This document shows positions 6,590-7,171 of a stretch of DNA of 54,346 nucleotides, one piece after another. This DNA comes from Verrucomicrobiota bacterium (GTDB lineage: Bacteria; Verrucomicrobiota; Verrucomicrobiia; Limisphaerales; UBA8199). Made by a program: the position numbers and the translations under genes. Location: contig JARKQH010000079.1 of the NCBI GenBank assembly GCA_029974925.1, forward strand, positions 1-54,346, given 5' to 3'. Below the pieces are notes generated by a model. The model did not search any database. It saw only the letters and a list, made by a program, of their open reading frames with translations, and was not told where the DNA came from. Position 1 is the first letter of the stretch; the number at the start of each line of letters is the position of its first letter.

Positions 6590-6773
6590 GGCAAAGCAGG
6601 GTCGTGCGGCCATGGGAGGCGACGCAGCGGACATCGCGATGCGCGGCAGTTCTCCACGTGGTGTGGGCGAATTCAATCTCGTGACACTTGACGCAGGCTT
6701 CGGCGACTGCGCCCGTATAATGTAGATACCGCCCGTCGGCACCGTCAACGCCGCAGCAGCGCAGCAGCACTTT
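6590..6773 (-). pseudogene. Remnant of a multihaem c-type cytochrome gene
   Basis: On the minus strand, one frame encodes a short stretch that looks like the middle of a multihaem cytochrome: DGADGRYLHYTGAVAEA, CVKCHEIEFAHTTW, then TAAHRDVRCVASHG. The first haem motif CVKCH (6681..6695) is intact. The second reads CVASH, one base change (TGC to TCC) from CxxCH. There is no start codon or signal peptide close by, and the frame degrades to arginine/proline-rich sequence on the 3' side, before the nucleoside hydrolase start. I read it as a decayed gene fragment. It could also be a chance resemblance, but two correctly spaced motifs with flanking family-like sequence make that less likely. Confidence 0.5.
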
Positions 6774-6783
6774 GTGGGAGGGC

Positions 6784-7171
6784 CGACGTCTCGTCGCCCC
6801 TGCTCCCATGCGCTCGAAACCAGCCCGCCTTCTTGGAGCACGCCGTTTGGAAACGGACCACGTTGGGGGGGAGCGGAGACGAGACGTCCCTGCTCCGAGA
6901 GGGTTTGCTGGTTTCGGGCGTCGGAGGTGTGGAGACGGGACGTCTCCAACCCCGAAGTCATTGAGGGTCGGGATGGGGGCTGGGACGTCTCGTCCCAGAA
7001 AAAGTGTTGGGTTGCGAGGGGATGTCACGGCGACGAGACGTCGCCGGCCCTGGCTGTAGCTGTCAATTTCGCGACACTAACGGGGACAGTGGAACGCGTC
7101 CCGACCAATCCGCTGGCGGGGACGGGGCGAAGTGGGACGAAGGGCCGTGCGACGGGGACGAGACGTCCCCG
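6784..7171. repeat. Cluster of six covarying short hairpins
   Basis: Six short inverted repeats share a core stem ending GACG or CGACG and a three-base loop (AGA, GGA or the complement TCT): 6784-6796 (CGACG/CGTCG), 6875-6891 (GGAGACG/CGTCCCT, extended by GAGC/GCTC on the outside), 6930-6948 (TGGAGACG/CGTCTCCA), 6980-6998 (CTGGGACG/CGTCCCAG), 7029-7045 (GGCGACG/CGTCGCC) and 7153-7171 (CGGGGACG/CGTCCCCG). The outer stem bases differ between copies, but in four of the six both sides change together so that pairing is kept, while the sequence between copies is unrelated. The cluster sits in the intergenic region upstream of the GH106 gene. I found no copy elsewhere in the window. Confidence 0.8.

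Follow-up and report, generated by a model that had tools for sequence, protein, structure and literature searches.

The six short hairpins that lie upstream of a GH106 gene in the 54-kb window (the whole stretch of DNA that was analysed, to which all coordinates refer) are very probably a partly decayed cluster of a REP/BIME family whose tag is a variant GGGG and not the textbook GTAG. In the genome that the window comes from, this family is present in high copy number, is divided into subfamilies, carries its tag on most copies and forms alternating arrays; its distribution among other genomes is patchy, and close relatives of the hairpins bracket RAYT (REP-associated Y1 transposase) genes elsewhere. 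Judged from these sequence features, the likely engine of its spread is a RAYT.

Six hairpins in a divergent intergenic region

The six hairpins share a GACG-NNN-CGTC core and occupy positions 6780-7171 (Table 1), within the intergenic region between a nucleoside hydrolase gene on the minus strand and the divergently oriented GH106 gene on the plus strand. Cores of the form GACG[A/G]GACGTC were located at 6785 (-), 6878 (+), 6934 (+), 6984 (-), 7032 (+) and 7157 (+), against an expectation from shuffled sequence of 0.92 for the whole 54 kb, and a count of 7 was reached in no shuffle. Four of the six (hairpins 3 to 6) have a perfect 8-bp stem closed by a 3-base loop, and hairpins 1 and 2 are imperfect. 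The region 6780-7171 contains four hairpins of at least 7 bp, compared with 0.053 on average and never more than 2 among 1000 dinucleotide shuffles, and the remainder of the window contains only three perfect 8-bp hairpins with a 3-base loop, similar to the shuffled mean of 1.9. Hairpins 3, 4 and 5 make up a single B-A-C run (subtypes are defined below) with the spacers found at other loci, and hairpins 1, 2 and 6 are divergent copies. Next to the array, the minus strand has a sigma-70-like promoter match at 6719-6748 that precedes the nucleoside hydrolase gene (one found, 0.1 expected).

The initial annotation had described six stem-loops with a GACG core upstream of the GH106 gene; all six are present at that place, and their density is not reproduced by shuffled sequence. 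It had also noted a loop that stays AGA, GGA or TCT. A TCT loop is an AGA loop on the opposite strand, so copies stand in both orientations, and the B-type loop is TCC. The GAGC/GCTC extension reported for one copy is found in hairpin 2 as part of a longer, imperfect pairing. Outer stem bases that change on both sides were likewise correctly seen, the arms differing jointly as CTGG/CCAG, TGGA/TCCA, CGGC/GCCG and CGGG/CCCG; what this covariation amounts to genome-wide is considered below.

Table 1. Hairpins and conserved spacers of the array in the window
Feature	Position	Strand	Description
Hairpin 1, degenerate C-like	6780..6800	+	TCT loop on +; CGACG/CGTCG with one C.C mismatch, then GGG/CCC; GGAG-like tag 5'
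Hairpin 2, imperfect	6870..6896	-	GGAGCGG/CTGCTCC extension with A.C mismatch and one G.T pair; tag GGAG on the TCT strand
Hairpin 3, B-type	6930..6948	-	TGGAGACG-TCC-CGTCTCCA on -; tag GGGG
Spacer, tag to tag, B to A hairpin	6949..6979	no strand	CCCCGAAGTCATTGAGGGTCGGGATGGGG; recurs in other arrays of the same genome
Hairpin 4, A-type	6980..6998	+	CTGGGACG-TCT-CGTCCCAG; tag GGGG
Second conserved spacer	6999..7027	no strand	contains GGGTTGCGAGGGG; elsewhere between A and C hairpins
Hairpin 5, C-type	7028..7046	-	CGGCGACG-TCT-CGTCGCCG on -
Hairpin 6	7153..7171	-	CGGGGACG-TCT-CGTCCCCG on -; tag GGGG

A tagged, high-copy repeat family in the same genome

The sequence GACGAGACGTC occurs in 232 copies in the window's own genome (G000) and the exact A-type sequence GGGACGAGACGTCCC in 122, with reversed controls of 0 in both cases. 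The copy number is probably underestimated because many of the examined loci sit at contig ends. Three subtypes are distinguished by their stems, namely A (CTGGGACG), B (TGGAGACG) and C (GGCGACG). At other loci of this genome, A hairpins alternate with B or C hairpins in inverted orientation; with their conserved spacers, at intervals of ~50/49 bp, they build up tandem units of 99 bp, and tandem periods of 30 bp and 33 bp also occur. Arrays like that of the window recur at dozens of loci. On the strand that carries the TCT loop, an unpaired GGGG stands 5' of the stem, 0-3 nt away, in 137 of 149 distinct copies. High copy number with dispersal, an unpaired 5' tag, and inverted pairs or alternating arrays, by which REP/BIME elements are broadly recognized, are therefore all found, together with an intergenic location at the window locus; a GTAG or GTGG tag, as in the GTAG-REP superfamily, is not found in this genome, the tag being GGGG. 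In one contig (L013, G000:C10), a block of ~570 bp (TTCAAAACCCTGAAAGGGTTTCAGACAGTAGCCGGGGG...) is repeated at 395-970 and 1400-1950 between hairpin arrays and represents a further dispersed repeat, within which a short tandem of CGCGGATTT with a period of 9 lies at 1834-1858.

Among the 149 distinct copies, the inner four base pairs are invariant since they were fixed by the search pattern. Further out, paired columns exceeded the shuffled values at pair 5 (135 versus 51), pair 7 (140 versus 72) and pair 8 (112 versus 64). The covariation of the stems is real, but it mostly reflects three fixed subfamilies and less so independent compensatory changes. Five distinct copies (L016, L017, L018, L019 and L021) are hybrids that join a B left arm to a C right arm (TGGA..GCCG) and have broken outer stems. 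Such hybrids suggest recombination at the shared core, and their mismatched stems indicate that pairing is not strictly required once a copy has become established. Outer stems vary between genomes as well, with CCGGACG and GCGGGCG in G210, GGGGACG in G203 and several variants in Akkermansiaceae.

Related hairpins and RAYT genes in other genomes

Amplification is patchy: high in the window's genome, clear in G210 (78 copies of GACGAGACGTC versus 3 in the control), slight in G203 (13 versus 3) and at background in the remaining 12 genomes of its taxonomic family. A scan of the collection with the 15-mer returned mostly scattered chance matches in G+C-rich genomes, and tagged or clustered copies came mainly from Verrucomicrobiota records and from one Acidobacteria MAG. 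Tags in the relatives include GGAG, GTAG and TAAGGGG. In G203 (L179, L183, L187 and L234), a partner hairpin, GGCGACG-GCC-CGTCGCC, stands ~46 bp from the GGGGACG hairpins, forming fixed pairs. Outside Verrucomicrobiota, Acidobacteria BP6.bin107 (G302) holds 44 copies of GGACGTCTCGTCC, a related family, including clusters with long stems (GCGGACG, CTGCGGGACG and GCGCCGGACG; for example L113 3035-3120 and L130 1477-1560). The loci examined in G018 and G256 were not counted as family members; their stems are mostly of 4-6 bp, and they have the appearance of coding sequence that matched by chance.

In two Akkermansiaceae MAGs (L251 and L252), a 203-aa RAYT gene lies between TAAGGGG-tagged hairpins with a GGACGTCTCGTCC core, partly arranged as inverted pairs. 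The encoded proteins score 64 bits (L251) and 72 bits (L252) with model NF047646, for which the cut-off is 80, and the L252 protein matches TnpArep (PDB 4er8, E 4e-5). Within the window's own order, 127 of 286 genomes encode relatives of the Akkermansiaceae RAYT. At most of the RAYT loci examined in this order, the gene is flanked on either side, within ~250 bp, by inverted hairpins that commonly carry a GGAG or GTAG tag, and the gene itself contains almost no hairpins. One such gene (G074:C294) is bracketed by hairpins that include AGGCGACG-TCT-CGTCGCCT, the C type of the window; a RAYT of G210 (G210:C275) has three or more tagged hairpins of the window family per side, and one of G203 (G203:C180) has a pair of such hairpins ~90-140 bp upstream. 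A RAYT flanked by hairpins of the same core, the arrangement by which a REPtron is recognized, was found at L251, L252, L268 and L223. A second RAYT of G210 (G210:C272, L246) lies amid a different hairpin family, AAGCGGCGGGACGCCGCTT, so that each G210 RAYT seems to own a separate hairpin.

The Akkermansiaceae RAYT query gave no match in the window's genome at E 1e-6. NF047646 matched three genes there, C391 (73 bits, intact and below the 80-bit cut-off), C30 (54.8 bits) and C104 (41 bits, with a stop); PF01797 alone missed C391, which was found by way of a G210 protein and NF047646. Only C391 has hairpins of the window family nearby, in the form of an A-B pair ~400 bp upstream, and we estimate the chance that this proximity is accidental at roughly 10%, given an estimated ~70 array loci and three candidate genes, so that C391 is no more than a candidate for the cognate enzyme. 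C391 is flanked on both sides by a different hairpin family (TTGGAGTGCGGCGC). At this locus (L245, G000:C391, 1068-2400), several TTTGGAGTGCGGCGC(N4)GCGCCGC hairpins stand on both sides of the RAYT-like gene, and this family is probably its closer partner. C30 and C104, the two PF01797 matches, were rejected as partners of the hairpins, there being no such hairpins around either.

Proposed origin and alternative explanations

Each REP unit consists of an invariant head (GACG-TCT/TCC-CGTC), a subfamily-specific outer stem and an unpaired GGGG tag on the 5' side. We propose that a Y1-type HUH transposase (RAYT or TnpA-REP) would recognize the hairpin and its tag in single-stranded DNA and spread copies to intergenic sites, where 99-bp tandem arrays could then grow through slippage or unequal recombination. 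Under this scheme, covariation of the stems would result from the separate amplification of REP subfamilies that differ in their stems, with the head and tag that the enzyme reads staying fixed. No pair of filled and empty sites was seen for an insertion.

The tandem periods of 99, 30 and 33 bp, and the hybrids whose subtype changes at the core, could also be produced if, in this genome, the repeat had been amplified only passively, by replication slippage and recombination of palindromic satellite-like DNA and without the action of a transposase, and the lack of a certain cognate RAYT there would agree with this. We regard such a purely passive origin as unlikely, as slippage leaves the dispersal to many contigs and the conserved 5' tag unexplained and hairpins with the same core bracket RAYTs in other genomes; passive slippage and recombination may well account for tandem growth after dispersal. 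Another possibility is that selection for binding maintains the hairpins as DNA targets of a host protein (a nucleoid, gyrase-like or chromosome-organizing factor) or of a regulator of GH106. A head and tag that stay constant beside a variable stem could serve for binding, IHF, gyrase and Pol I are among the proteins reported to bind REPs (PMC6006769), and the array of the window does lie between divergent genes. However, the same arrays stand at dozens of loci across the genome, the repeat does not rise above background in the other 12 members of its taxonomic family, unlike the sites of a conserved regulator, and relatives of the hairpins bracket transposase genes, so that we consider this origin quite improbable. 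A secondary host-protein role may exist beside the REP origin, and the copies in front of GH106 are probably there without a function dedicated to that gene, their neighborhood being incidental.

Strong, G+C-rich, intergenic hairpins would also be expected of structured RNA or of transcription terminators or attenuators. This explanation we judge very improbable: no terminator (a hairpin followed by a T-run) was called inside 6780-7171, the orientation of the hairpins alternates within each array, the region lies between divergent genes, and Rfam 15 gave nothing above the gathering cut-off, the only match (MIR949, 24.8 bits against 100) being at chance level. The initial annotation had offered a REP-like family in mid-diversification, a protein-binding array and structured RNA as readings. 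The first is upheld by a high-copy, dispersed and tagged repeat that is structured into subfamilies and has relatives around RAYT genes; structured RNA gains no support, given the alternating orientation, the Rfam result and the absence of a terminator call, and neither does a protein-binding array dedicated to GH106, since such arrays recur elsewhere.

Returning to the REP/BIME reading, the GTAG-, GGAG- and GGGG-type tags in neighboring genomes suggest drift of one guide sequence. We therefore entertain, tentatively and with somewhat more doubt than conviction, the idea that Verrucomicrobiota, and possibly Acidobacteriota too, harbor a large RAYT/REP radiation that has been little described, with a guide tag that shifted from GTAG to GGAG, GGGG and TAAGGGG, a CG-TCT-CG head that remained fixed and a stem that was free to change; the element described here would then run without an adjacent RAYT of its own, being served in trans by C391 or orphaned. 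The rules of RAYT/REP systems derive mostly from GTAG elements of Proteobacteria. Such a radiation, if real, would form a natural series for the study of tag-transposase co-evolution, and the relatives within the order, whose RAYT genes have neighboring hairpins with GTAG-, GGAG- and GGGG-type tags, would permit a direct sequence-to-specificity test of tag reading. A practical warning is that, in these genomes, a gene is not necessarily regulated by the hairpin cluster beside it.

Comparison with known REP systems

REPs have been sorted into GTAG- and CGTC-tagged groups, and GTAG repeats have been reported in Opitutus terrae (PMC3733652). Most RAYT subclasses have GT[AG]G tags and class 3 has CnGA feet, and the strings GGAG and GGGA are absent from the text of that report (PMC6006769). 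The GGGG tag fits neither scheme. The present family resembles the GTAG REP/BIME elements and RAYTs (TnpA-REP) of E. coli and Pseudomonas (PMC3733652, PMC6006769) in being a short hairpin with an unpaired 5' tag, present in hundreds of copies as inverted pairs and alternating arrays, with subfamilies that differ in the stem and relatives that bracket RAYT genes. It differs from them in its tag (GGGG, with GGAG or TAAGGGG in relatives, versus GTAG or GTGG), in its invariant CG-TCT-CG head and in that its cognate RAYT in the same genome is at most the candidate C391.

The CGTC-tagged REPs are also palindromic, share the letters CGTC and form a group without a known transposase, but their CGTC is an unpaired terminal tag, next to a stem of 8-9 bp with AT in the first two pairs and a loop of 4-5 bases (PMC3733652). 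Membership of that group was rejected, as the window hairpins have CGTC within the paired stem, adjoining a 3-base loop, and GGGG as their 5' tag. Another parallel is offered by the class 3 Y1 proteins of Solibacter and Planctomycetes (PMC6006769): there, too, a Y1 transposase from environmental phyla is flanked by atypical hairpins that are of the non-GTAG kind and occur in high copy; the foot of those hairpins is CnGA, whereas here it is GGGG or GGAG and the proteins score best with the RAYT model NF047646. Finally, many copies in Akkermansiaceae are paired closely, in inverted orientation at a distance of 21-25 bp and with the tags outward, as are the REPINs (inverted REP pairs) of Pseudomonas (PMC3116915), whereas the window's genome has chains with 50/49-bp spacing and a 99-bp period in place of isolated pairs.
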